Of a stretch of DNA of 64,000 nt, positions 48,622-64,000 are shown piece by piece. The position numbers and the translations under genes were made by a program. Position 1 is the first letter of the stretch. The number at the start of each line of letters is the position of its first letter. The stretch spans positions 62,001 to 126,000 of the forward strand of contig NZ_JBBAYJ010000002.1 in the NCBI RefSeq assembly GCF_037153975.1. Reading direction: 5' to 3'. The notes under the pieces are model-generated. The model made no database searches. It was not told the DNA's origin and was given only the letters and a program-made list of their open reading frames with translations. Source of the stretch: Aquipuribacter sp. SD81. GTDB lineage: Bacteria; Actinomycetota; Actinomycetes; Actinomycetales; JBBAYJ01.

Positions 48622-50184
48622 ATGCCGTCCACCGCCCCGGCTCCCACCCCGGTCGAGCTCTCGCCCCGGCGGCGCCGCGCGCTCCTCGGCGTCGTCGCCC
48701 TCGCGCTCATGATGGTCGTGAGCGCGGTGAGCGGCCTCAACGTGGCCCTGCCCGACCTCGCGCTCGCCACGGGCGCCACCCAGACCGAGCTGACGTGGAT
48801 CGTCGACGCCTACACCGTCGTGTTCGCCGGGCTGCTGCTGTCCGCGGGCGCTGTCGGTGACCGGTTCGGCCGCAAGGGCATCCTGCTGGCCGGGCTCGCC
48901 CTGTTCGGCGCCGCCGCCGGGATGGCGATGACGGTCGACGACCCGCAGACGCTCATCGCGCTGCGCGGCGTCATGGGTGTCGGCGCGGCCGCCGTCATGC
49001 CCGTGACGCTGTCGGTCATCACGACGTCGTTCCCGCCCGAGGAGCGCGGTCGGGCCGTCGGGGTGTGGGTCGGGGTCGCCGGCGGCGGTGCCGTCCTCGG
49101 CCTGTTCGCCTCCGGCATCCTGCTCGAGCTGTTCGACTGGTCGTCCTTCTTCGGGCTCAACGTCGCCCTCGCCGTCCTCGCCCTCCTCGGCACGCTCGTC
49201 GTGGTACCGAGCTCGCGCGACCCCCACCGCCCGCCGCTGGACCCGGTGGGCGGGGTCCTGTCGGTGCTCACCGTGGCCGGGCTCGTCTTCGGCATCATCG
49301 AGGGCGCCGAGCGGGGCTGGGGCGACGCGTGGACGCTGTCGTCGCTCGCGGTCGGAGCGGTGTCGCTCGTGGGTTTCGTGTGGTGGGAGCTGCGGCGCGA
49401 GCACCCGCTGCTCGACCCGCGCCTGTTCCGCCTGCGCGGCTTCGGCGCCGGGTCGCTGGCGCTCACCGTGCAGTTCTTCGGCAGCTTCGGGCTGTTCTTC
49501 GTCATCCTCCAGTACCTCCAGTTCGTCACCGACCTGTCGCCGCTGCAGGCGGCGCTGTGCCTGCTGCCGCTGCCGTTCGTGCTCATCCCCGTCGCCCGCA
49601 ACGCCCCGCGCGTCGCCGACCGGCTCGGCACGAACCGGGTCGTCGCGCTCGGCCTCACCCTGAGCGCGACGGGGATGCTCGTGCTCACCGGCCTCACGAC
49701 GGACCTGCGCTACTGGCACGTCGCGCTCGGCCTCGTCGTCTTCGCCGCCGGCATGGGCCTGGCGGGCACGCCGTCGACCACGGCCATCGTGTCGTCGCTG
49801 CCGCAGGCCAAGCAGGGCGTCGCCTCCGCGGTCAACGACGTCTCGCGCGAGGTCGGCAGCGCCGTCGGCATCGCCGTCCTCGGCAGCACGATCACCGCCG
49901 TGTACCGCAGTGGCGTCTCGGGCGCGGTCGAGGGCCTGCCGCCCGAGGCCGCGGAGCGTGCGGAGGCGTCGATCGCCTTCGTCCGGCTCGCGGCCGACCG
50001 GCTCGGACCCGCCGGCGAGCAGCTGCTCGACACGGCCGAGGCGGCCTTCGTCGACGCCGCGACGACGGCCTTCGTCGTGGCCGCCGTCGTGCAGCTCGTC
50101 GCCGCGGCGCTCGTGCTGTGGCTCGCACCGCGCAAGGGCCAGGTCCGCGCCTCCGAGCTGGAGGACGCGCTCGCGGGGTCGTGA
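48622..50184 (+). CDS. MFS drug exporter, DHA2 (EmrB/QacA) family
   Basis: 520 aa with 14 membrane helices. Motif A GAVGDRFGRKGILLAG between helices 2 and 3, motif D1 near WIVDAYTVVFAGLLLSAG, motif C GVAGGGAVLGLFASGIL in helix 5. These are diagnostic of proton-driven multidrug antiporters of the DHA2 family. ATG follows AGGAGG. Its own promoter has an operator-like palindrome, suggesting drug-inducible expression. The gene ends 37 bp before TGCCCCCA element copy D. Confidence 0.9.
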   Translation: MPSTAPAPTPVELSPRRRRALLGVVALALMMVVSAVSGLNVALPDLALATGATQTELTWIVDAYTVVFAGLLLSAGAVGDRFGRKGILLAGLALFGAAAGMAMTVDDPQTLIALRGVMGVGAAAVMPVTLSVITTSFPPEERGRAVGVWVGVAGGGAVLGLFASGILLELFDWSSFFGLNVALAVLALLGTLVVVPSSRDPHRPPLDPVGGVLSVLTVAGLVFGIIEGAERGWGDAWTLSSLAVGAVSLVGFVWWELRREHPLLDPRLFRLRGFGAGSLALTVQFFGSFGLFFVILQYLQFVTDLSPLQAALCLLPLPFVLIPVARNAPRVADRLGTNRVVALGLTLSATGMLVLTGLTTDLRYWHVALGLVVFAAGMGLAGTPSTTAIVSSLPQAKQGVASAVNDVSREVGSAVGIAVLGSTITAVYRSGVSGAVEGLPPEAAERAEASIAFVRLAADRLGPAGEQLLDTAEAAFVDAATTAFVVAAVVQLVAAALVLWLAPRKGQVRASELEDALAGS

Positions 50185-50688: not shown

Positions 50689-50733
50689 ATGCAGCCGCCC
50701 GCGGACCGACCGACCGCGGTGGCCTCGTCGTGA
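50689..50733 (+). CDS. 14-codon leader ORF coupled to cardiolipin synthase
   Basis: An ATG at 50689 lies 6 nt after a TAGCGT -10 box (50677-50682), the leaderless spacing. Its 14 codons end in a TGA that overlaps the GTG of the cardiolipin synthase gene. No independent ribosome site is visible for that GTG. The peptide starts MQPPADRP and is probably a translation-coupling leader. Confidence 0.45.
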   Translation: MQPPADRPTAVASS

Positions 50734-52205
50734 CCGTCGAGCAGCTGCGGGGACCGCTAGGGGTCGCGGTCCTCGCGGTCCTGCTGGTCGCCGCCTACGT
50801 CGCCCTCGTCGTCGTGCCGCGGAACCGCAAGCCGAGCTCGGCGACGGCCTGGATGCTCCTCATCTACATCCTGCCCGTCGTCGGTCTGCTCGCCTTCCTC
50901 GTCATCGGCAGCCCCCGCCTGCCCGCCGCCCGGCGCGCGCGGCAGACCGAGGTCGACCGTCGGATCGCGGCCCGCGTGGTCGCCGAGGGCCTCGGGCACG
51001 TCGAGGCACCGGGCCCGCCGTGGCTGGACGGCGTCGTCCGGCAGAACCAGAACGTCGGCGCCCTGCCCATGCTGCAGGGCTGCTCCGCCGAGATCCACGA
51101 CGGCTACGAGGAGACGATCCAGGCGATCGCCGACGACATCGCCGCCGCCACCGACTTCGTCCACGTCGAGGTCTACATCCTGTCCCTCGACGAGACGACG
51201 GAGCCGTTCTTCGCCGCGCTGGAGAAGGCCGTCGCCAACGGCGCCGGCGTGCGGGTCCTGCTCGACCACATCGGCTCGGCGGGCTACCCCGGCTACCGCG
51301 CGACCCTGGAGCGGCTCACGGCGGCCGGCGTGCAATGGCACCTCATGCTGCCGGTGCAGCCGTGGCGCGGCCGCTACCAGCGCCCCGACCTGCGCAACCA
51401 CCGCAAGCTCGTCGTCGTCGACGGTCTCGTCGGCTGGGCCGGGTCGCAGAACGTCATCGACAGCTCCTACGACAAGCGCGCCAACCGCCGCAAGGGGCTG
51501 CGCTGGCAGGACCTCATGGTCCGCGTGCGCGGCCCGGTCGTGCAGTCGCTGGACGCGGTGTTCCTCACCGACTGGTTCAGCGAGACCGACGAGCTGCTCG
51601 ACATCACCGCACCCGAGCGTCCGACGGACGCCGCCGGGGTGGCCGCGGAAGGGCCGCTCGCGATCCAGGTCCTGCCGAGCGGGCCGGGCTACGACACCGA
51701 GAACAACCTGCTCATGTTCAACGCGCTGCTGTACTCCGCCCGCCGGCGGGTCAGCATCACGAGCCCGTACTTCGTGCCGGACGAGTCGCTGCTCGACGCC
51801 GTCGTCGCCGCCGGGCTGCGTGGCCTCGACGTCGAGCTGTTCGTGCCGGCCGAGGCCGACCAGTTCTTCGTGCAGCACGCCCAGCGCAGCTACTTCGAGA
51901 CGCTGCTGCGCGCAGGCGTCCGCATCCACCTCTACCCGGCCCCGACGGTGCTGCACGCCAAGCACATGAGCATCGACGACGACGTCGCCTACGTCGGCTC
52001 CAGCAACCTCGACATCCGCTCCTTCCAGCTCGACCTCGAGTCCTCGCTGCTCATCCAGGGCCGTGAGTTCGTCGACGACCTGCGGCGGGTGGAGGACGGG
52101 TACCGGGCGGCGAGCCGCGAGCTCACGCTCGCGGAGTGGCTGTACCGGCCGCGCGTAGCACGGGTGGTCGACAACCTCGCGCGCCTCACGTCCGCGCTGC
52201 AGTGA
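50730..52205 (+). CDS. cls: Cardiolipin synthase
   Basis: 491 aa. Two N-terminal membrane helices are followed by two PLD domains with HKD motifs: NHRKLVVVDG near residue 224 and LHAKHMSIDD near 408, each followed by GS/SN signatures (GWAGSQN; GSSNLDIRS). The layout and length match ClsA-type enzymes that condense phosphatidylglycerol, although some actinomycetes use a CDP-alcohol type enzyme instead. Membrane located. GTG start shares GTGA with a 14-codon leader. Confidence 0.88.
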   Translation: MTVEQLRGPLGVAVLAVLLVAAYVALVVVPRNRKPSSATAWMLLIYILPVVGLLAFLVIGSPRLPAARRARQTEVDRRIAARVVAEGLGHVEAPGPPWLDGVVRQNQNVGALPMLQGCSAEIHDGYEETIQAIADDIAAATDFVHVEVYILSLDETTEPFFAALEKAVANGAGVRVLLDHIGSAGYPGYRATLERLTAAGVQWHLMLPVQPWRGRYQRPDLRNHRKLVVVDGLVGWAGSQNVIDSSYDKRANRRKGLRWQDLMVRVRGPVVQSLDAVFLTDWFSETDELLDITAPERPTDAAGVAAEGPLAIQVLPSGPGYDTENNLLMFNALLYSARRRVSITSPYFVPDESLLDAVVAAGLRGLDVELFVPAEADQFFVQHAQRSYFETLLRAGVRIHLYPAPTVLHAKHMSIDDDVAYVGSSNLDIRSFQLDLESSLLIQGREFVDDLRRVEDGYRAASRELTLAEWLYRPRVARVVDNLARLTSALQ

Positions 52206-52285: not shown

Positions 52286-53188
52286 TCACAGCCCGGTCTG
52301 ATCGACCCCGTAGGTGGCCTGCTCGCGGGTGAAGCCTTCGAACTCGAGCTGCTCGATGAGGCCGGAGCGAGAGAAGGACGTGAAGTCGAGGTAGTCCTGC
52401 GCGGACTTGGCGGCCTGCTCGTTCCAGTCGACATCGAGCTGGCTGACGGCCCACTCCGCGTCGGCGTTCGAGTAGCCCTCGAACTCGAGCTGCTCGATGA
52501 GCCCGGACCGGGAGAAGGCGGTGAAGGCGAGGTAGTCCTCGGCGGACCGCTTCGCGTTCTGCTGGGCGACCGTCCCGGCCGCAGCCTCCTCGGCCGCCTT
52601 CTCCGCTGCCGCCCGCTCCTCTGCCGCCTTCTGCTCCGCCGCGAGCTCCTCGGCCGCCTGTGCGGCCGCCGCCTCCTCGGCCGCCACGCGCTCGGCTTCG
52701 GCGGCCTCTGCAGCCGCCGCCGCTTCCTCTGCCGCCTCCTTCTCGGCTGCTTCCTGCGCAGCAGCCTCTTCGGCCGCCTCGTTCTCGGCCGCCGCCTCGG
52801 CGGCGGCCTCGTCGACAGCGACGACGGAGGCCTCGGCCTCTGCCGCAGCAACCTCCTCGACCAGCTCGGACGTGTCGGCCGCCGAGGCGGCCTCGACCTC
52901 GGTGGTGCTACCGCCCGCGGCGACGGCGACAGCGATGACGATCACCCAGAACAGAGCCGCGAGGCCGCCGATGACGACGGCGGCCACAGCCAGGCCACGA
53001 CCGTCGCGCCTCCCGGGACCGGTCCGACGCAGCGCGAGGACGCCGAGCACGAGTCCGACCGGCCAGAACAGGATGGCGAGCACGAGCGCGACGACGGCGA
53101 GCGGCTCCACGCCCCGCCCCGGGCCGGCCGGGGACGCAGGAGGCGGCGCTCCGGGAGAGACGGGCGGGAGGGTGGCAGAGCCGGACAT
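52286..53188 (-). CDS. Membrane protein with Ala/Glu coiled coil and two Ltp repeats
   Basis: 300 aa. A Pro-rich N-terminus precedes a DUF4190-like two-helix membrane region (ALVLAILFWPVGLVLGVLAL and AAVVIGGLAALFWVIVIAVA), then about 110 residues of almost pure Ala/Glu/Lys coil. Two copies of a 40-residue repeat end the protein (SAEDYLAFTAFSRSGLIEQL and SAQDYLDFTSFSRSGLIEQL), which belong to the Ltp family named for a phage superinfection-exclusion lipoprotein but common in actinomycete surface proteins. ATG at 53188 has GGAG upstream. The coil probably spans the envelope and presents the repeats. Confidence 0.78.
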   Translation of the reverse strand: MSGSATLPPVSPGAPPPASPAGPGRGVEPLAVVALVLAILFWPVGLVLGVLALRRTGPGRRDGRGLAVAAVVIGGLAALFWVIVIAVAVAAGGSTTEVEAASAADTSELVEEVAAAEAEASVVAVDEAAAEAAAENEAAEEAAAQEAAEKEAAEEAAAAAEAAEAERVAAEEAAAAQAAEELAAEQKAAEERAAAEKAAEEAAAGTVAQQNAKRSAEDYLAFTAFSRSGLIEQLEFEGYSNADAEWAVSQLDVDWNEQAAKSAQDYLDFTSFSRSGLIEQLEFEGFTREQATYGVDQTGL

Positions 53189-53431
53189 CGCAGCGCTCCA
53201 GGTCATCGGCGTCGAAGGACCCGCCCATGTCACATGTCCTCGGGCGGGCTGAGCAGCCGAACGGGTGCAGAGGGGACGAAAGGACGACCTGCGTCGAAGG
53301 GCCCGCCGAACCACCACGAGACGGTGTAGGCGTCCGGCGCCGTCACGGAACTCCTCGGGCAGGTCCGCGGCCCAAGCGGGCTACGGCTGGCCCCATGGTC
53401 CGCCGGCCGCGCGACGAAGGAGGATCGCGGC

Positions 53432-54541: not shown

Positions 54542-55384
54542 ATGGCTGACCTCTCCTGTCCCGCGTGCACGGCCCCCGACGAGCACGTCCGGCTGGTGGC
54601 GCAGACCGCGTCGGGGCAGAAGGAGCTCGGCTGCGAGGAGTGCGGCCACCGGTGGCTGCGGGGTCAGGCGCGGCGTGTGCCGTCCGGTCGTCCGCCCGGG
54701 CGCTCGTCGACGAGCAGCCAGGCCGTCTTCGACCGGGCGTCGCAGGTCTCGCCCGAGGTGGCGGCGAAGGTGACCGCCGCCAAGGCGCGCTACCTCGCAC
54801 GCGACCGTGCCCCGAGGCCCGGCGCGGCGCAGTACCAGGCGCGCTACCAGGCCCTGTTCTCCCCCGAGGGCCTCGGCGGTGCGAGCGCGGCCGACCTGCG
54901 CGAGTTCGCGACCAGCCCCTTCGGCGTCAGCTCGGGGAGCTCGCACGCGTTCCTCGCGGCGTGGGACGCGCTCGGGGACTACGAGGCCGCGCGGCTCACG
55001 CGCGGCACGATCCACTACCTGCTCCACGGTCCCGCGCACCTCCCCCTCGAGCAGCGCCTCACCCAGCTCGTGCAGGGCACGCACGTGGTGGGCATGGCGG
55101 GGTTCAAGGAGACGCTGCTGACGCGGACGCTGTGCGTGGCGCACCCGGAGCGCTTCCTGCCCGTGCTCGGCTACGGCGGCACGCAGGGCGGCAAGCGCTC
55201 CATCGCCAAGCAGGTGTTCGGGCTCGACCTGCCGCGCATCGACTCCTCGGCCATCACGGTCGGGCGGGCCGTGGTGTGGAGCAACGACCTGCTGGTGGGC
55301 CTCGTGGGGACGGGCTTCACCGACCTGCACGACGCGTCGCTGTTCCTGCTGCAGGCGCGCAAGGAGCGCGTGGCCGCCGGCTGA
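54542..55384 (+). CDS. Hypothetical protein with N-terminal zinc ribbon
   Basis: 280 aa. Residues 6-36 hold CPAC and CEECGH, a four-Cys zinc ribbon. A linker rich in Arg/Pro/Ser leads to a helical domain with LFSPEGLGGASAADLREF, then HVVGMAGFKETLLTRTL, RFLPVLGYGG and TVGRAVVWSNDLLVGLVG. This looks like a conserved globular domain, possibly DNA binding, and similar segments occur next to restriction-type ATPases in my recollection, but I do not recognise a named family. ATG has GGAGG upstream. Monocistronic. Confidence 0.7.
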   Translation: MADLSCPACTAPDEHVRLVAQTASGQKELGCEECGHRWLRGQARRVPSGRPPGRSSTSSQAVFDRASQVSPEVAAKVTAAKARYLARDRAPRPGAAQYQARYQALFSPEGLGGASAADLREFATSPFGVSSGSSHAFLAAWDALGDYEAARLTRGTIHYLLHGPAHLPLEQRLTQLVQGTHVVGMAGFKETLLTRTLCVAHPERFLPVLGYGGTQGGKRSIAKQVFGLDLPRIDSSAITVGRAVVWSNDLLVGLVGTGFTDLHDASLFLLQARKERVAAG

Positions 55385-55809: not shown

Positions 55810-56463
55810 TCACTGCACGTGCGAGGTCCACGCCCGACCGTCGAAGTACCGGACATCGCCCTGGCCGTCCGGGTACCAGCCGGGCGCCCACGCCGGTGCG
55901 GGCGGCGCGACGGGGACGTTCACCTGCACGTACGTCGGCGCGGCCAATGTGGCGACCGGGTCGCTCATGCACGACATGACGAGCGCGGCGACCCATCCGA
56001 TGAACGTCCACCCGACGAGCACGTTGAGGAGCGCGATCGCGCCCACGTTCGAGCGCTGACGGGTGGCGGCGATCGCCCACGGCAGCATGTAGCCGAGCGT
56101 CAGGACGGTGATCACCCACGCGATTGCGATGTGGCCGCCGCCCACCCGGGGCCGGTACGGCGCCACTCCCTGCGCCGTGCGGACCGCGGGCAGCGGCTGC
56201 GGGACGGGCACGACCGGGCCGGCCGCGGGGGCCGGGGCGGGCGGGGCGGGCGGGGCGGCCGGCCCCGGGTGGTACCCCTCGGACACGACAGGGCCTTCGA
56301 TGACGCGGTCGTCGAAGGACGGCCGCGGCATCTCGACGGTGTCCGGCGAGTCGGGGTGCCGGTCGCGGTCCGCCGACTGCGGTCCGGACGGCACCGCGTC
56401 GGTGTACGGATCGAACCTGTCTGCGTCCTCGTTCCCGGAGCCCCCGCGGGCGACGTCGTTCAT
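55810..56463 (-). CDS. Superinfection immunity-family membrane protein with DUF2510 domain
   Basis: 217 aa. A long acidic and Pro/Ala-rich N-terminal half is followed by two membrane helices (GHIAIAWVITVLTLGYMLPW and NVLVGWTFIGWVAALVM), a pattern of the superinfection-immunity (Imm-like) family. The C-terminal DUF2510 motif APGWYPDG and YFDGRAWTSHV is common in actinobacterial membrane proteins. The family name comes from phage T4 Imm; cellular members have unknown function. ATG at 56463 chosen because the upstream extension is of different composition. Confidence 0.78.
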   Translation of the reverse strand: MNDVARGGSGNEDADRFDPYTDAVPSGPQSADRDRHPDSPDTVEMPRPSFDDRVIEGPVVSEGYHPGPAAPPAPPAPAPAAGPVVPVPQPLPAVRTAQGVAPYRPRVGGGHIAIAWVITVLTLGYMLPWAIAATRQRSNVGAIALLNVLVGWTFIGWVAALVMSCMSDPVATLAAPTYVQVNVPVAPPAPAWAPGWYPDGQGDVRYFDGRAWTSHVQ

Positions 56464-56642
56464 GGCGCGAGTCTGGCCCTCAGCCGTGGGTCGAGGAGAA
56501 GGAATCGGTGGAAAGGGTGCCGACCATCGCCGCCGCGCAGGGGACAACGGGCGGTGCCCCTCCGACGCCAGGTCCTCGTTGCGACGACCCGACCTCGCTC
56601 GGCCCGACGACGTGGTCGGAGTCTGGCGCATGGCCCTGACGG

Positions 56643-57072
56643 CTACACGTCATCCGCGGCGAGGTCGGCACGGACGGCGTCGACGATCACCCGCGCGGAC
56701 GTCAGGTCGGACTGCACCTGTTGCGTGCCGATCGCCACGTCCCTGTACTCGCTGCGGTTCCATGTCAGCCGCATGGCCCGGAAGCGTCGTACGGCGCCGG
56801 ATTCGTCGACGATCGCAGCCGAGGCGTACAGCCCCACCGCCTCGTGAGCGCCGGAGCGGTTCGTCGAGCGCAGTTCCCGCGCGAGCATGTGAGCGGTGAT
56901 TGCCTTCCGCGCCGCGTCGTAGAGCGGCGTACGCCATGGCCGGGTCCAGCGCGGCGAGGAGACCGGCGCTCTCGAGATGGTGCGCGCAGAGCTCCAGGCG
57001 TTCCCTTGCGGAGTCGCCGTCCACGGTGACCCGCTCGAGTCGACCGGCGCGGATCGGGTCCTCGACGCTCAC
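56643..57072 (-). pseudogene. HEPN-domain protein gene with frameshift
   Basis: From a GTG at 57072 (overlapping the stop of the nucleotidyltransferase gene) the frame reads VEDPIRAGRLERVTVDG and so on to AAYAAL-type residues near 56920. The conserved continuation YDAARKAITAHMLARELR and RLTWNRSEYRDV is in another frame and ends at 56643. The total of 430 nt is one more than a multiple of three, so one base is inserted or two are deleted near 56915-56925. HEPN proteins pair with MNT nucleotidyltransferases as toxin-antitoxin modules; here the toxin-side gene looks broken, unless the shift is a sequencing error. Confidence 0.7.
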
Positions 57073-57686
57073 GAGACGTCCGCTCCGACGACGTCGACGC
57101 GGGCGCCGGCGCGGACCGCATCGAGGAAGCCGGACCGGTCGTTCCTCCACTCCTCGGGCGAGAGGAGGGTCGGCGCGACCTCGCGCCCGAGACGCTCCCC
57201 TGCCGCCGTCACCGCGTCGGCGAGGGCGTCCGTGTCCGGTCGACCCACCACGAGCAGGTCCACGTCGGTCGGTGGCGGGCCCGCCGTCCCGGCATAGCGC
57301 TCGGCCCAGCCGCCGAAGATGGCGGCGTAGTAGATGCCCCCCACGGTGCTGAGGAGCTCTGAGAGCACCACCTGCGGACCGAAGGCCTTCAACACGAGGC
57401 CTGCCAGCTCCGGGTACAGGACCGCGGTGCTGTCCACGCGCACCGATCGTTGGTTGCGGCCACCGTGCACCTGAACGACCCCCGCCTGCTCGAGGCGACG
57501 GACCTCCCGGGAAGCAGTGGGCTGCGACACGTCCGCGGCACCGGCGATCTCCGAGACCGACCAGTCACGCTGGGGGTTCAGCAGAACGGTCGCCATCACG
57601 CGGGCTTGCGCCGCGCTGCGGAGCAGCGGAAGCAGGGGCGGAGCGGCTTGAACCACATTCTGAATACTAGTCGCCGACATGTGCAT
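57069..57686 (-). CDS. HTH plus MNT-type nucleotidyltransferase (HEPN partner)
   Basis: 205 aa. The N-terminal winged helix reads DWSVSEIAGAADVSQPTASREV and EQAGVVQVHGGRNQRSV, similar to ArsR-type DNA-binding domains. The C-terminal domain carries AAIFGGWAERYAG and PTDVDLLVVG, the GG and DxD-type motif of minimal nucleotidyltransferases. MNT antitoxins AMPylate HEPN partners. The stop overlaps the GTG of the HEPN gene. Either of two in-frame ATGs (57686 or 57680) could be the start. Confidence 0.85.
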   Translation of the reverse strand: MHMSATSIQNVVQAAPPLLPLLRSAAQARVMATVLLNPQRDWSVSEIAGAADVSQPTASREVRRLEQAGVVQVHGGRNQRSVRVDSTAVLYPELAGLVLKAFGPQVVLSELLSTVGGIYYAAIFGGWAERYAGTAGPPPTDVDLLVVGRPDTDALADAVTAAGERLGREVAPTLLSPEEWRNDRSGFLDAVRAGARVDVVGADVS

Positions 57687-57794
57687 ACCGCTGAGGGCGT
57701 CCTGCTTCGACGGCCCGGCACCAGCAACGGTGCTACTCGGGCCCTCAGCACCTAGGCGGCTCGGGTTCGGTCCCTGCCAACTTCTGCACTGCAT

Positions 57795-57908: not shown

Positions 57909-60900
57909 TTACGCCACCACCGACGACGCTCGGTAGATCTCGACCGGCATCGGTCGACGCAGCTTCCACGTGATGGCGATAGGTCGGTCGCCATCATGGT
58001 GCTGGTAGGTCAGCGGCCCGAGCAGCGAGTACGGGCCGGCACCACCCCATGCGTTGGTTCGGGTTTGCCGCGTCAGGAGCAGCACGTGAGTCCCCCGCTC
58101 ACGGTGACGCAGGTACCGCTGTCCCACCTCGGAGTCGACGCTCGTCCGGTTCTGGGATTCCCAGTGAAAGAGGTCGGGGCTTATGGCGTAGTCGCGGTAC
58201 ATGGTGTCCGGGGAGTGGTGCTTCTCGTCCTTCACCAGCGTCACGAAGAACGCGTCAGCACGAGCCGCCCCCGCCCACACCACCCCAGCCGCGTGCCCCT
58301 GCGTCCTCCTCGGCGTCGCCGTCTCGATGTCCGCCCAGTCGAGCGCGGCGAGCACCTCGTCGCGGCTGTAGCGAGCGTGCGTCTGCAGCGTCACCTGCTG
58401 CAGGCCGGCCTCCAATGGCAGGGGCACGTGCTCGGCGCGAGCGAGCCCGAGCGCGATGAGCTGCCGCATCTCGTCGCACACGGCGGGGTGGGCCAGCAGC
58501 TCGTCGAGCCCGTCCTGGTAGGTGTCGTGCCCGCCGCCGTCGGGCCACACGGCGAAGAAAAGCATCCGGGCGTAGCGCTGGTCCCGCTCTCCCAGCGTCG
58601 TATAGGTGACGGGGCCGCTGAGCAGCCGCGTGTAGACCTCCGCCCGCTCGGGGTCGTCGACGTGCGCCATGGTCGCGGTCCGGGCCAGCAGCTTCTCTTC
58701 GTGCGGCCCGGCGGGCGGCGTCGGGAAGCCGGCCTCCCGCCGCAGCGCCGTCCAGGAGCCGCGCCGGTAGACATCCGCCAGCTCGCGACCGGACTTACGC
58801 AACCAGCCCGCCAGGTCTAGGTCGCCGTGGCTGCTGACCTCCCGGATGAGCTCGGCACGGCGCAGCGACAGCTGTCGCTTGACGTTGTCGAGGACGACCT
58901 CACGAGCCACCTCGTCCAGCACGAGCTCGCAACCTGACGGCAGGTAGGAGAAGCCGTTCTCGACCTGCCGCTGCAGCTGGGTGCGGCTGGCGCCGGTGAG
59001 GGCGCGGTAGCGCAGGTCGAAACGGAACTCGCGGCGCTGCTGGCCGATGAAGTCGAGCACGGTGAGAACGGGCTTGTCGGCGGTCCGGCGCAGTCCGCGG
59101 CCCAGCTGCTGCAGGAAGATCGTGGCGCTCTGGGTCGGGCGGAGCAGCAGCAGCGTGTCGACGTCGGGGACGTCGAGCCCCTCGTTGAACAGGTCGACGG
59201 TGAAGACCGCGTTGACCCGCCGGTTCCGCAGCGCCGCCAGCGCATCGGCCCGGGCCTTCGGGCTCGTGTCCTTGTATACGGCCAGCGCCGGGATGCCGGC
59301 GGCGGTGAAGCGCTCGGCCATGTACCGGGCGTGAGCGATGGACACGCAGAAGCCCAGCGCGCGCATGCGGGCAGGGTCGGGGACCTTGTCCCGCACCTGC
59401 TGCAGCACGATGCGGACGCGCGCGTCGGTGCCGGTGTAGAGCCGCTCGAGGTCGGCGGTGGCGTATTCGCCGGCGCGCCAGTCCAGCCTGGACAGGTCGG
59501 TGCCGTCGCTGACGCCGAAGTAGTGGAACGGGCAGAGCAGGTCGGCGTCCAGCGCGTCCCACAGCCGCAGCTCGGCGGCGGTCCGGCCGTCGAAGACGGA
59601 CCGCACGTCGACGCCGTCACCGCGCTCGGGGGTGGCGGTCAGCCCCAGCAGCTCGGTGGGGCGCAGGTGGTCGAGCAGGCGTCGGTAGGTCGCCGCCTGG
59701 GCGTGGTGGAACTCGTCGACCACGACGACCTGGAAGCGGTCGGGCGCTAACGAGTCGACGCCCGCGGCCGAGAGGCTCTGCACGCTCGCGAAGACGTGCT
59801 GCCAGCGGGTGGGACGGCGCCCGCCGACGTACAGCTCGCCGAAGGAGCCGTCGGCGAGGACCTCGCGGTAGGTGCGCAGCGACTGCTCGAGGATCTCGCT
59901 GCGGTGCGCGACGAAGAGCAGCGACGGCCGGTGCGGCATGCGGGCGTAGTCGAGGGCGGCCACGACGGTCTTTCCGGTTCCGGTGGCGGCAACCACGAGG
60001 TTGCGGTGATGGCCGTGCACGGTCCGCTCGACGTCGAGGCGATCGAGGATCTCCTGCTGGTGTGGGTAGGGGCGAACGTCGAGGCCGCTGATGACGAGCG
60101 GCGCGTCGGACCTGCCACCGTCAGCGCGCGCCAGGGCCTCGTCGAGCCGGTCACGATCGGCGTCGGGGTCGTAGTCGACGAAGGCAGGGTCGGCCCAATA
60201 CGTGTCGAATGTCGCCTCGAACTTGGTGAGCAGCTCGGGGGTGTGGGCCCCGGCGAGTCGGACGTTCCACTCCAACCCGTCGAGCAGGGCCGCCTTACTG
60301 AGGTTGGATGAGCCGACGTAGGCGGTGTCGTAGCCGGTGCGACGGCGGAACAGCCAGGCCTTCGCGTGCAACCGGGTCGACCGCGTCTCGTAGTTGACCT
60401 TGACGTGCGCGCCGAAGTCGCGCACAAGCCGATCGAGGGCGACGCGCTCGGTCGCCCCCATGTACGTCGTCGTGACGACGCGAAGGTCAACGCCTCGGCG
60501 CCTCAGCGTCGTCAGCTGATCTTCGAGCACGCGCAGCCCGTGCCACTTCACGAAGGCGCAGAGGAGGTCGACCCGGTCGGCCGTTGCGAGCTCGGCCCGC
60601 AGTTCGGCGCCCAGCTTCGGCTCGCTGCGAGCGTTGGTGAGCAGCGCAGGCCGCGACAACGGCACCTCCGGACGGAGGGCGCTGAGCCGGTAGACCCCCG
60701 CCGCCTCGCGCTGAGCGAGGGCGAGGAGCTGCCGAGGACCAGGCAGCACTGGGTCGCCGTCGATGTCGGCGAGCAGGCGGTTGACGAGCTCGAGGCGCGC
60801 GTCCGGCTCGAGGTCGACCAGCGCCCACGCAAGGCGGCGCGCGACGTGCTCAGCGAGGACCGTCGCCTGCTGCGCCGGCTCGACCGCATCCTCGACCGGG

Positions 60901-60989
60901 TGCAGATCGGCGCGCTCCGTCAGGGCGTCTCTCAGCCGAGTCGTCATCAGACGCTCGTACACGCCTTCGAACAACGACTCCCCCGCCAC
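57909..60989 (-). CDS. PLD-nuclease/DEAD-box helicase with DUF3427 domain
   Basis: 1026 aa. N-terminal helical region, a PLD-type nuclease domain with RLHAKAWLF (HAK at about 208-210) and YVGSSNLSKAAL, then an SF2 helicase core: Walker A ATGTGKT near 336, DEFHH near 425, LTATPERGD near 452, and QQLGRGLRR as motif VI. The C-terminal third carries DUF3427-type features (YSRDEVLAALDW; THVLLLTRQT). Such proteins are found in defence-associated islands. The GTG at 60989 starts where family members usually begin, but has no ribosome site; an AGGAG with GTG-ATG lies about 20 bp upstream in another frame. Confidence 0.85.
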   Translation of the reverse strand: MAGESLFEGVYERLMTTRLRDALTERADLHPVEDAVEPAQQATVLAEHVARRLAWALVDLEPDARLELVNRLLADIDGDPVLPGPRQLLALAQREAAGVYRLSALRPEVPLSRPALLTNARSEPKLGAELRAELATADRVDLLCAFVKWHGLRVLEDQLTTLRRRGVDLRVVTTTYMGATERVALDRLVRDFGAHVKVNYETRSTRLHAKAWLFRRRTGYDTAYVGSSNLSKAALLDGLEWNVRLAGAHTPELLTKFEATFDTYWADPAFVDYDPDADRDRLDEALARADGGRSDAPLVISGLDVRPYPHQQEILDRLDVERTVHGHHRNLVVAATGTGKTVVAALDYARMPHRPSLLFVAHRSEILEQSLRTYREVLADGSFGELYVGGRRPTRWQHVFASVQSLSAAGVDSLAPDRFQVVVVDEFHHAQAATYRRLLDHLRPTELLGLTATPERGDGVDVRSVFDGRTAAELRLWDALDADLLCPFHYFGVSDGTDLSRLDWRAGEYATADLERLYTGTDARVRIVLQQVRDKVPDPARMRALGFCVSIAHARYMAERFTAAGIPALAVYKDTSPKARADALAALRNRRVNAVFTVDLFNEGLDVPDVDTLLLLRPTQSATIFLQQLGRGLRRTADKPVLTVLDFIGQQRREFRFDLRYRALTGASRTQLQRQVENGFSYLPSGCELVLDEVAREVVLDNVKRQLSLRRAELIREVSSHGDLDLAGWLRKSGRELADVYRRGSWTALRREAGFPTPPAGPHEEKLLARTATMAHVDDPERAEVYTRLLSGPVTYTTLGERDQRYARMLFFAVWPDGGGHDTYQDGLDELLAHPAVCDEMRQLIALGLARAEHVPLPLEAGLQQVTLQTHARYSRDEVLAALDWADIETATPRRTQGHAAGVVWAGAARADAFFVTLVKDEKHHSPDTMYRDYAISPDLFHWESQNRTSVDSEVGQRYLRHRERGTHVLLLTRQTRTNAWGGAGPYSLLGPLTYQHHDGDRPIAITWKLRRPMPVEIYRASSVVA

Positions 60990-61435
60990 GCTTGGCAGCT
61001 TGTCATCACGGCGACGCTCCTGCCGGTGTTCGGGAAGACTAGGTATCGAGGCGCTTCGACGACGTGGGCCCGTCTGCGGTAGCAGTCGCTGGCCGGAGTC
61101 GACGTCACGTCCGGCAAGGGCCTCGTCTCCAGCGTCGGCCACGCCGGCATGAACGGGGAACCGCGCCGACGCCAGCGCGTAGCTCGTCGTCGGCGACACG
61201 ACCAAGGGCCCGTCGACGGCACCGCATGACGTCGGCCTTTACCGCCGGGGCGAGGCTCGCGGGCGACCGCCTGCGGCTCCTTGCCCTCGGCTTTGGCCCT
61301 CGGCCCTACGCCCCTAGCCCGCGATCCAGTCAGGCGAGTGCCGCGCACAAATTGCGTTCTCCGTATAGCCAGTTCTGTCCAGTAGCCCAGCAGTGGGCGA
61401 GTCAACGAATACCGATGTGCGCCATGCTCTCGCCC
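60990..61435. other. 446-bp divergent region between helicase and nuclease-like genes
   Basis: Contains the likely promoters of both flanking genes. Part of it remains open in the helicase frame up to 61205, but the composition there is unlike a gene. Around 61340-61400 the GC content falls and holds -10-like TATAGC. No inverted repeat of note was seen. Confidence 0.5.
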
Positions 61436-62323
61436 ATGGACCCTCGGTGGGACAGCGACGCCCTTACGGTCGCCAGTGACACCGCTCGACTTCGTCGCTA
61501 CCGGCGGGCGCAGTCCCGGTGGCGCGAGACCGTCCTCGGTCTGCCCCCGGGCGAGTCGGCTCCTGCCCGGAACGTCGGCAGCCGTCTGCGGACTGACGCT
61601 CCCGACTCGGCTCAGTGGCTCACGCCCCACGTCGCCGCGTACGTCGCCGACCGTCTGCCGCAGGCGGAGCGCGACGGCGAGGCGATCGAGCGAGGCCGCC
61701 TCTTCGGCAACCTGCTGTCGAGCCAGCCGCTGTGCTTCAACGTCTTCGGACAGCTGGCCGCCTACCCGAACGCAGCGGCGCGTCTCCTCACTCGTCTCCT
61801 CGACCAACACGTCGACCGGGTCGACGACGTCCTCGTCGAGCACACCCCGCCTGCCGCCAAGGCGACCCTCGGCGACCGCAGCGCCTTCGACGCCTACCTG
61901 GCCCTCACGATCGACGGCGCGCCCGCCTTCGTCGGCGTCGAAACCAAGTACACCGAGCCGTTCAGCGCGACGAAGTACCGCCGCGACAGCTACGACCAGG
62001 TGACCGAGCGCGCGGACGGCTGGTTCGTCAAGGACGCAGCCCGGGCCGCGGTCACTTCCGCCACCAACCAGCTGTGGCGCACGCTCATGCTCGCGCAGAC
62101 GACGGAGCTGCAGACCGACGCCGGGTCGGGGACGGTCCTGGTGCTCTGCCTCGACGACGACCCGCACGCCACGCAAGCCGTCGACGGCATGCACGAGCTG
62201 CTGCGCGAACCCGACCGGCGCCTGCGCCGGGTCACGTTCGAGCGGATGGTCGAGGCCGCGTCGGAGGAGGAGGACCTGCGGGCCTGGGCGGCGCTGTTCA
62301 CGGCGCGCTACCTGACGCTGTAG
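61436..62323 (+). CDS. PD-(D/E)XK nuclease-like protein (PGN_0703-like)
   Basis: 295 aa. The core motif, Asp in RSAFDAYLAL, followed by Glu-x-Lys in VGVETKYTEPF, is the metal-binding arrangement of PD-(D/E)XK nucleases. The flanking patterns GNLLSSQPLCFNVFGQL and YDQVTERADGWF resemble the PGN_0703 family of putative restriction endonucleases. It would cleave DNA if active; partners and target are not known. Three in-frame ATGs (61415, 61424, 61436) are possible starts and none has a clear ribosome site. Divergent from the PLD helicase. Confidence 0.72.
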   Translation: MDPRWDSDALTVASDTARLRRYRRAQSRWRETVLGLPPGESAPARNVGSRLRTDAPDSAQWLTPHVAAYVADRLPQAERDGEAIERGRLFGNLLSSQPLCFNVFGQLAAYPNAAARLLTRLLDQHVDRVDDVLVEHTPPAAKATLGDRSAFDAYLALTIDGAPAFVGVETKYTEPFSATKYRRDSYDQVTERADGWFVKDAARAAVTSATNQLWRTLMLAQTTELQTDAGSGTVLVLCLDDDPHATQAVDGMHELLREPDRRLRRVTFERMVEAASEEEDLRAWAALFTARYLTL

Positions 62324-62364
62324 CGGGCGGCCCCGCCGCACCGCCACCTCCATGACGTACCCGG

Positions 62365-62407
62365 CTGCAGGTTGCATCTCTGCAAGTTGCACTCATGCAG
62401 GTAACAT
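62365..62407 (+). promoter_or_regulatory. Tandem operator and -10 box upstream of DUF234-type ATPase
   Basis: Two TTGCA-N4-TGCA(A/G) inverted repeats, at 62372-62385 and 62387-62400, follow a CTGCAG (62365-62370). A TAACAT -10 box (62402-62407) lies immediately after and ends 6 nt before the ATG, implying a leaderless mRNA. The half-site resembles that of the XRE-cupin palindrome at 41.6 kb. Confidence 0.6.
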
Positions 62408-62413
62408 TAGCGC

Positions 62414-63805
62414 ATGCAATTCGTCGGACGACGTGCGGAACTGGACCGGCTGACGTCCGAGCTCGGCCGGAGCGGCGACGCCGGGCGCATCCTGGTCGTC
62501 CGCGGCCGCCGACAGGTCGGCAAGTCCACGTTGCTCGAGCAGTTCCGCCGACAGGTCGACGTCCCGTCGGTGTTCTTCGCCGCGGCCGCCGGGGCGACAC
62601 CAGGCGAGGAGTTGAGGGCCTTCGTCGACGAGGTCGCCGGCTCGACGCTGGAGGCTGCGGCCGTCATGGGCGACGCGCGTCCTGCCAGCTGGGAGGCGGC
62701 CCTTCGCCTCCTGGCCGCGAGCACGACCACACCCTCCGTGGTCGTCATCGACGAGCTGCCGTACCTGCTGCGCGGCGACCCGGGACTCGAAGGGGTCCTG
62801 CAGCGGGTCTGGGACCGCCACCTCAGCCGCGCCCCCGTCCTGCTCGTCCTCATCGGCAGCGAGACGACTGTCATGGAACTTCTGACCAGCCACGGGCACC
62901 CGCTATTCGGCCGCGCCGGGGAGCTGCGCGTGGACCCGTTGGCGCCGCGCGACGTCGCGGCGCTCCTCGACCTCCCGGCTGGAGACGCCATCGAGGCGAC
63001 CGTCGTCACCGGCGGCCTGCCTCGTCTCGCGCAGGAGTGGCGGGCCGGCGGCGCCCAGCGGGTCGAGGACTTCGTGGCGCAGCAGCTGCAGGACGCCACG
63101 TCCCCGCTCGTCGTGCTGGGCGAGCGCTATCTGCGCGCCGAGTTCCCGACCACCGTGCAGGCCGAGCGCGTGCTCCGTGCCGTCGGCTCGGGCGCCACCA
63201 CCTTCCAGCGGCTGTCCGAGCGCACCGGACTGAACCAGGGCTCGCTGCACCGATCGCTGCAGCAGCTGCTGGAGTCGCGGCTCCTGGCGGTCGATCGACC
63301 CCTGTCCACCGCCACCACGCGCCTCGCGCTCTACCGCGTGCACGACAACTACCTGCGCTTCTGGCTGCGATACGTCCCCCGGGCCCTGGACCGCGTCGAG
63401 CGCGGCCGTGGCGACGAGGCGGCGGCCAGCGTTCTGCGGGACTGGGCGTCGTGGCGCGGTGCAGCCGTCGAACCGTTGGTCGCGCGGTGCCTCGCCGGCG
63501 GTCCGCCCGTGCAGGGTCTGCCGGACGCCAGGTCCGTTGGCCGCTTCTGGACCCGTGACCACAGCGTCGAGGTCGACCTGGTCCTCGCTGATGCCCCCTC
63601 TCCGCCTACGCAGCCGCTCGCCCTCGGCACCATCAAGTGGCGCGAGCGGGCACCTGTCGGTCACCGGGACGTGGCCTCCCTCGCCCAGGCGCGAGCCGTC
63701 GTCCCGGGAGCCGCTGAAGCCGTCCTCTTCGCGGTCGGGCGGACCCCCGGTCCGGTCCCGGACGGGCTGGCTCGCCTGGTCACGGCCGACGACCTGTTGC
63801 GGTGA
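62414..63805 (+). CDS. ATPase with C-terminal DUF234 domain
   Basis: 463 aa. Walker A GRRQVGKST at 31-39 and Walker B VVIDELPYLL near 110-118, then the sensor-type segment LIGSETTVMELL and a winged helix around TTFQRLSERTGLNQGSLHRS. The C-terminal domain (GRFWTRDHSVEVDLVLAD and ALGTIKWRERAPV) matches DUF234, a PD-(D/E)XK-like fold; the acid normally before the IK position is Thr. Such ATPases are common in archaea and some bacteria and have an unknown, possibly mobile or defence-associated role. Tandem operator repeats precede the gene. Confidence 0.85.
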   Translation: MQFVGRRAELDRLTSELGRSGDAGRILVVRGRRQVGKSTLLEQFRRQVDVPSVFFAAAAGATPGEELRAFVDEVAGSTLEAAAVMGDARPASWEAALRLLAASTTTPSVVVIDELPYLLRGDPGLEGVLQRVWDRHLSRAPVLLVLIGSETTVMELLTSHGHPLFGRAGELRVDPLAPRDVAALLDLPAGDAIEATVVTGGLPRLAQEWRAGGAQRVEDFVAQQLQDATSPLVVLGERYLRAEFPTTVQAERVLRAVGSGATTFQRLSERTGLNQGSLHRSLQQLLESRLLAVDRPLSTATTRLALYRVHDNYLRFWLRYVPRALDRVERGRGDEAAASVLRDWASWRGAAVEPLVARCLAGGPPVQGLPDARSVGRFWTRDHSVEVDLVLADAPSPPTQPLALGTIKWRERAPVGHRDVASLAQARAVVPGAAEAVLFAVGRTPGPVPDGLARLVTADDLLR

Positions 63806-63891: not shown

Positions 63892-64000
63892 ATGACCAGC
63901 ACCGCCGACGCCGTCGGGACCGCGGGCGGCTCGCTGCGCGCGGAGGCCGCTGCGTGCCGCGACCGGGCCGAGCAGTGCGCGCAGCAGCGCAAGCAGTGGC
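63892..64000 (+). CDS. Unknown protein, 3' partial
   Basis: An ATG at 63892 opens a frame that continues to the window edge (at least 36 codons). The visible part begins MTSTADAVGTAGGSLRAEA and is rich in Ala, Arg and Gln, consistent with a helical start. No domain can be named. It lies 87 bp after the DUF234-type ATPase gene. Confidence 0.4.
   Translation, partial: MTSTADAVGTAGGSLRAEAAACRDRAEQCAQQRKQW

Follow-up and report, generated by a model that had tools for sequence, protein, structure and literature searches.

The locus and its three central genes

The stretch of DNA analysed here (the window, 64,000 nucleotides) comprises bases 62001-126000 of contig C2 (NZ_JBBAYJ010000002.1) in the 3.86-Mb draft genome (70-80% G+C) of Aquipuribacter sp. 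SD81, and near its right end it carries a large helicase with a PLD nuclease domain, a divergent nuclease of the PD-(D/E)XK type (PDDEXK_13) and an ATPase with a DUF234 tail. We report that the large protein is very probably a stand-alone SauUSI-type type IV restriction enzyme, i.e. an enzyme of a known kind, at a locus composed of independent defence-type genes that do not form a multi-gene system. This interpretation is based on the protein family, the domain order, the retained motifs and the independence of the three genes in the sampled genomes. The original prediction for this locus, which was made from the sequence alone, had combined the three genes into a candidate defence cluster without a recognised name; the genes themselves are all present as it described them, according to Pfam.

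The helicase frame extends over 57909-61205 on the reverse strand (1098 codons) and carries PLDc_2, ResIII, Helicase_C and DUF3427 domains. For the gene we prefer the extent 57909..60989 with a GTG start at 60989, the start codon being uncertain. On the forward strand the open frame with the PDDEXK_13 domain spans 61064-62323 (PF20796, 252.8 bits, cut-off 27), and the gene is placed at 61436..62323 with its start codon at 61415 or 61436. The more probable start is near 60989 for the helicase (instead of 61205) and near 61415-61436 for the PDDEXK_13 protein (instead of 61064), and with these revised starts an overlap between the two genes is not required. The third gene, 62414-63805 on the forward strand, encodes an ATPase (ATPase_2/AAA) with a winged helix and a DUF234 tail (Pfam), and it matches the PADLOC model PDC-S27. 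The domain and model scores for the named genes are too strong for chance.

The large helicase and SauUSI

The helicase matches the PADLOC model mREase_IV (PDLC03659) with 1198 bits, and residues 160-1096 cover nearly the full model (positions 1-941 of 945); for a start at 60989, approximately 87 N-terminal residues fall beyond the model. Its nearest solved structure is that of SauUSI (7clg; E 1.1e-80 over residues 186-786), with a weak match in the C-terminal part, and the Pfam domains are PLDc_2 (2.2e-10), ResIII (1.2e-33), Helicase_C (9.4e-11) and DUF3427 (5.4e-21; residues 876-1092). According to PMC7913695, SauUSI combines a PLD nuclease, a superfamily 2 (SF2) ATPase, a coupler and a target recognition domain (TRD) in one chain, dimerises via its nuclease domains and moves along DNA, and PMC3874153 describes that DNA with 5-methylcytosine (5mC) and 5-hydroxymethylcytosine (5hmC) is cut by SauUSI and that two sites are required for efficient cutting. 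The window helicase is likewise a single chain in which a PLD nuclease, an SF2 ATPase and a C-terminal DUF3427/TRD follow one another as in SauUSI.

The two proteins also share the HxK, Walker A, DExH-type and QQLGRGLR motifs. In the window helicase the PLD motifs read LHAKAW (HxK) and GSSNLS (N motif), and among 41 aligned helicases (the window's included) the H of HxK is present in all and the K in 40. With few exceptions, the 40 aligned relatives also retain the Walker A, DExH-type and QQLGRGLR motifs. The window helicase differs from SauUSI in being approximately 85 residues longer at the N-terminus, if the start is at 60989, and in a residue following HxK, discussed below. It also differs in its C-terminal domain, which aligns weakly to that of SauUSI, and therefore the target base and the target site may differ. 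Like SauUSI-type enzymes it is a single chain without a cognate methylase alongside: no methylase was found among the ten window proteins that were scanned with Pfam, and the neighbours vary across the 40 helicase loci that we studied. As had been suggested with the original prediction, we also compared the helicase with known PLD-helicase systems, and the known anti-phage protein of this type was rejected (NF042964, 18.3 bits against a cut-off of 1100; PADLOC PLD_Helicase, E 0.017).

By analogy with SauUSI, the DUF3427 domain would recognise modified cytosine in incoming DNA and the DExH ATPase, once bound, would translocate along it. The PLD domains of two copies may pair to give a single HxK active site, which would break DNA bearing more than one modified site and might in this way protect the host. 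SauUSI-like type IV enzymes of this actinobacterial branch could be an obstacle to transforming cells with methylated DNA.

Distribution and neighbourhoods of the three genes

The genome survey covered 297 genomes of the order, including the window's genome. The helicase was found in 54 of these (E <= 1e-100), the PDDEXK_13 protein in 6 and the ATPase in 28 (E <= 1e-20). The pairwise genome overlaps were 5, 2 and 1 against 5.09, 1.09 and 0.57 expected (4, 1 and 0 without the window's genome). We then compared neighbourhoods of up to 20 kb for 40 of the 53 other helicase matches, 20 of the 35 other ATPase matches and 21 PDDEXK_13 loci (18 matching the window protein by tblastn, 3 being weak profile matches). 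Several loci end at contig edges (e.g. L015 and L028, ~3 kb each), leaving these neighbourhoods incomplete, and the genes were called with a script based on G+C by codon position, which gives approximate gene ends and possibly some false calls. Neither PDDEXK_13 nor the ATPase was present in any of the 40 helicase loci, and neither the helicase nor PDDEXK_13 in any of the 20 ATPase loci; among the 21 PDDEXK_13 loci the helicase was present in one and the ATPase in none. In that one locus (L021:6544-11768) there is a tandem of PDDEXK_13, a protein that weakly matches NucS_C and the type IV helicase. Recurrent gene clusters were confined to at most 3 of 19 PDDEXK_13 loci and at most 5 of 21 ATPase loci (counting that of the window), and ordinary chromosomal genes are among those around the ATPase.

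The most similar helicase found (73% identity) belongs to a genome of the same genus, G035, with neither PDDEXK_13 nor the ATPase beside it; the ATPase was not found in this genome at E 1e-20. The gene that follows the G035 helicase has a start that on our reading resembles GmrSD proteins, and on the same contig there are a weak PDDEXK_13 match ~20 kb away and a nucleotidyltransferase-HEPN pair ~27 kb away. A search for an empty site in sister genomes did not find one: the flanking genes used as queries gave no shared place, and the EAL query was a poor one with dozens of paralogues. The helicase, PDDEXK_13 and ATPase genes are independent in the sampled genomes. This is the result of the co-occurrence check proposed with the original prediction, which had itself named independence in related genomes as the first half of what would speak against it. 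The unnamed three-gene set is accordingly not supported and, as a conserved unit, rejected, its helicase being of a named kind (type IV/SauUSI), and a false lead towards a new three-gene system has been removed.

The setting in a defence island, which had also been predicted, was examined by matching neighbouring proteins to PADLOC models. Helicase neighbours matched 86 models (122 proteins) and PDDEXK_13 neighbours 123 (90 proteins), against 9 models (complete list) for 118 control proteins; ATPase neighbours matched 8 (112 proteins). The scans covered 122 of 157 helicase neighbours (31 of 40 loci), 90 of 92 PDDEXK_13 neighbours (two frames overlapping the L021 helicase were removed), all 112 ATPase neighbours and 118 of 120 controls (two very long proteins were removed); the control genes were drawn from 20 helicase-bearing genomes and are a poorer match to the PDDEXK_13 set. 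Individual type I methylase models had up to 4 matches among the 90 PDDEXK_13 neighbours and no match among the 118 controls. In Pfam the 122 helicase neighbours included GmrSD (6), HNH_2 (5), SLFN-g3 (4) and NERD (4), none of which is among the 25 families listed for the 118 controls, where unlisted families have at most one member. These type I methylase and Pfam contrasts are firmer than the model counts. Taken together, these comparisons support a location in a defence island for the helicase and PDDEXK_13, but not for the DUF234 ATPase.

Some observations weigh against the interpretation of the large protein as a stand-alone type IV enzyme among independent defence-type genes. First, the models counted in the defence contrast overlap, and no single one has more than 4 matching proteins (one control model also has 4); therefore the contrast is smaller in proteins than in models. 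Second, the E that follows HxK in SauUSI is R in the window helicase; among the 41 aligned helicases this residue is R in 20, H in 15 and E in 2. In our judgement, the E ending H(X)K(X)4E, described for SauUSI itself, is not a defining trait of the type IV kind. Third, the host genome, searched for the C5 family, has two C5-cytosine methylase matches (G000:C5:31580-32530 and 56109-57308) on a contig other than that of the helicase. Either the helicase does not target the sites of these methylases or it has a specificity unlike that of SauUSI; its target, if 5mC, should therefore be of a type that the host itself does not produce. Finally, in L021, from an Acidimicrobiia metagenome-assembled genome, PDDEXK_13 and the helicase lie ~1.5 kb apart on the same strand, and given this locus a loose link between the two is possible.

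The L021 arrangement also bears on the idea that the helicase and PDDEXK_13 are an occasional functional pair of two nucleases, arranged divergently or in tandem, in which the ATPase has no part; G035, where a single contig carries both the helicase and a weak match to PDDEXK_13, points the same way. We consider such a pair unlikely, given that PDDEXK_13 is absent from all 40 helicase loci and that the neighbours of both genes show varied defence-model matches, which would explain rare adjacency. That the helicase-nuclease, the PD-(D/E)XK nuclease and the ATPase work jointly as one defence system is very improbable: the three genes are adjacent in the window, PDDEXK_13, the ATPase and a following NERD-UvrD gene are codirectional with gaps of ~90 bases, and one more locus has PDDEXK_13 near the helicase, but the neighbourhood counts, the genome overlaps at expectation and the G035 helicase without either partner argue against it. 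There is similarly little to recommend a RadD-like DNA repair helicase with no role in restriction, since the RadD match (4.9e-30 over the ATPase part) reaches 104 bits against a cut-off of 720 and compares with 1198 bits for the type IV model, the PLD and DUF3427 domains are present, and presence is patchy (54 of 297 genomes).

Among the type IV enzyme loci (41 in total) a cluster of Schlafen group 3 helicases is present in 8 (L075, L076, L078, L087, L094, L106, L110 and one more) and a NUDIX cluster in 7 (L081, L091, L099, L103, L108, L110 and L111), the Pfam identity of each cluster being taken from one representative. Possibly, these are accessory genes of this type IV branch; a conserved helicase partner was rejected, the Schlafen and NUDIX clusters being the only, weak, recurrences.

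The PDDEXK_13 nuclease, the DUF234 ATPase and the flanking genes

The PDDEXK_13 nuclease is the least-known part of the locus and is conserved across phyla. Both its Pfam profiles, PDDEXK_13 (PF20796) and REase-ARP (PF22558, 103.8 bits), score above cut-off. We found 16 relatives in named bacterial genomes, with labels that include Actinomycetota, Chloroflexi, Myxococcales and Lujinxingia, and 12 of these, from several phyla, were aligned with the window protein (37-47% identity to it). The alignment does not include L014, whose matched region is interrupted by a stop, L026, or the incomplete L027 and L028. In the 13 aligned sequences the PD-(D/E)XK active-site residues D152, E169 and K171 are invariant, and there are long invariant blocks, e.g. 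SSxPxCFNxFG, AFDA, ETKYTEPF and NQLWR. The predicted structure (mean pLDDT 93, pTM 0.91) gave many PD-(D/E)XK nucleases among the 50 matches listed in a structure comparison, with a best Z of 7.2, and no match at E 0.001 with Foldseek. A Z of this size may reflect no more than a common arrangement, and the PD-(D/E)XK assignment therefore rests first on Pfam and the active-site residues; families outside the structure list may match as well.

No PADLOC model matches the PDDEXK_13 protein at E 1, and we found no paper under the family names PDDEXK_13, REase-ARP or PF20796; within these families, no conserved partner was seen in the neighbourhoods. Distant matches were detected in the plasmid (5) and phage (3) collections, and viral contigs gave 4 matches at 28-30%. 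Two plasmid contexts were examined, one of which has genes for a GIY-YIG and a RecB-like nuclease close by, and the type IV helicase is named in neither. The protein is a separate single-gene nuclease, probably also directed against phages or plasmids. Kin in several phyla, defence-like neighbours, plasmid-borne distant relatives and the lack of a PADLOC model or a paper lead us to suggest, tentatively and at somewhat below even chance, that it represents a widespread, unrecognised single-gene defence nuclease. With neighbours that are defence-like in several phyla, this uncharacterised nuclease is a candidate that can be tested singly.

The ATPase, too, stands alone, as a single-gene PDC-S27 protein (match 1e-21 over residues 2-356 of 463) with the ATPase and DUF234 tail of this phage defence candidate. 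In PMC12988326, PDC-S27 is described as the fusion of an ATPase with a PD-(D/E)XK member, and most such PDC candidates are said still to await validation. Elsewhere, the neighbours of relatives of the window ATPase match no more defence models than the control. Among 21 aligned ATPases, that of the window being one, the tail motif is G-(S/T)-x-K-W in 20 and G-L-x-K-W in one. The canonical form in other members is E-x-K or E-x-K-W, and in all 21 sequences S, T or L occupies the position of the expected E, with T in the window protein. Because of this replacement the DUF234 tail of this PDC-S27 branch may not be the usual nuclease and could be changed or dead.

On the other side of the helicase, where HEPN/MNT genes had been predicted, both parts of a PDC-M05 pair (nucleotidyltransferase and HEPN) are recognisable at 56643-57794 as a neighbouring, separate module. 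The helix-turn-helix (HTH)-nucleotidyltransferase gene (57069-57794, reverse strand) matches PDC-M05A at 3.6e-43, and the HEPN partner (56643..57069, reverse strand, upstream end approximate) matches PDC-M05B at 3.4e-7 on its C-terminal part (56643-56888). In contrast to PDC-M05, the HEPN frame is disrupted in this assembly: a three-frame reading revealed a frameshift, either real or a sequencing error. The HEPN relative in G035 has an open frame. The nucleotidyltransferase is present in none of the 40 helicase loci and in 1 of the 21 PDDEXK_13 loci.

Near the island there are also a protein with Imm_superinfect and DUF2510 domains (55810-56631; Pfam) and a 280-residue frame (54542-55384) without a Pfam match at E 1. 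The third-codon-position G+C is 0.84-0.89 in the helicase, PDDEXK_13 and ATPase genes, compared with 0.97 in two clear genes nearby, 48622-50184 and 50730-52205. As a sign of acquired DNA this is weak, because the nearby frames 52286-53317 (0.85) and 55810-56631 (0.89) have similarly low values.

Following the ATPase, a codirectional gene for a NERD-UvrD helicase (64042-66036 in window numbering, with a frame that may begin at 63892) lies mostly beyond the window end, and was therefore hardly visible in the original prediction; it constitutes a further defence-type gene. A link between the type IV helicase and NERD was rejected, with NERD-UvrD matches in just 2 of the 40 helicase loci, one of them partial.

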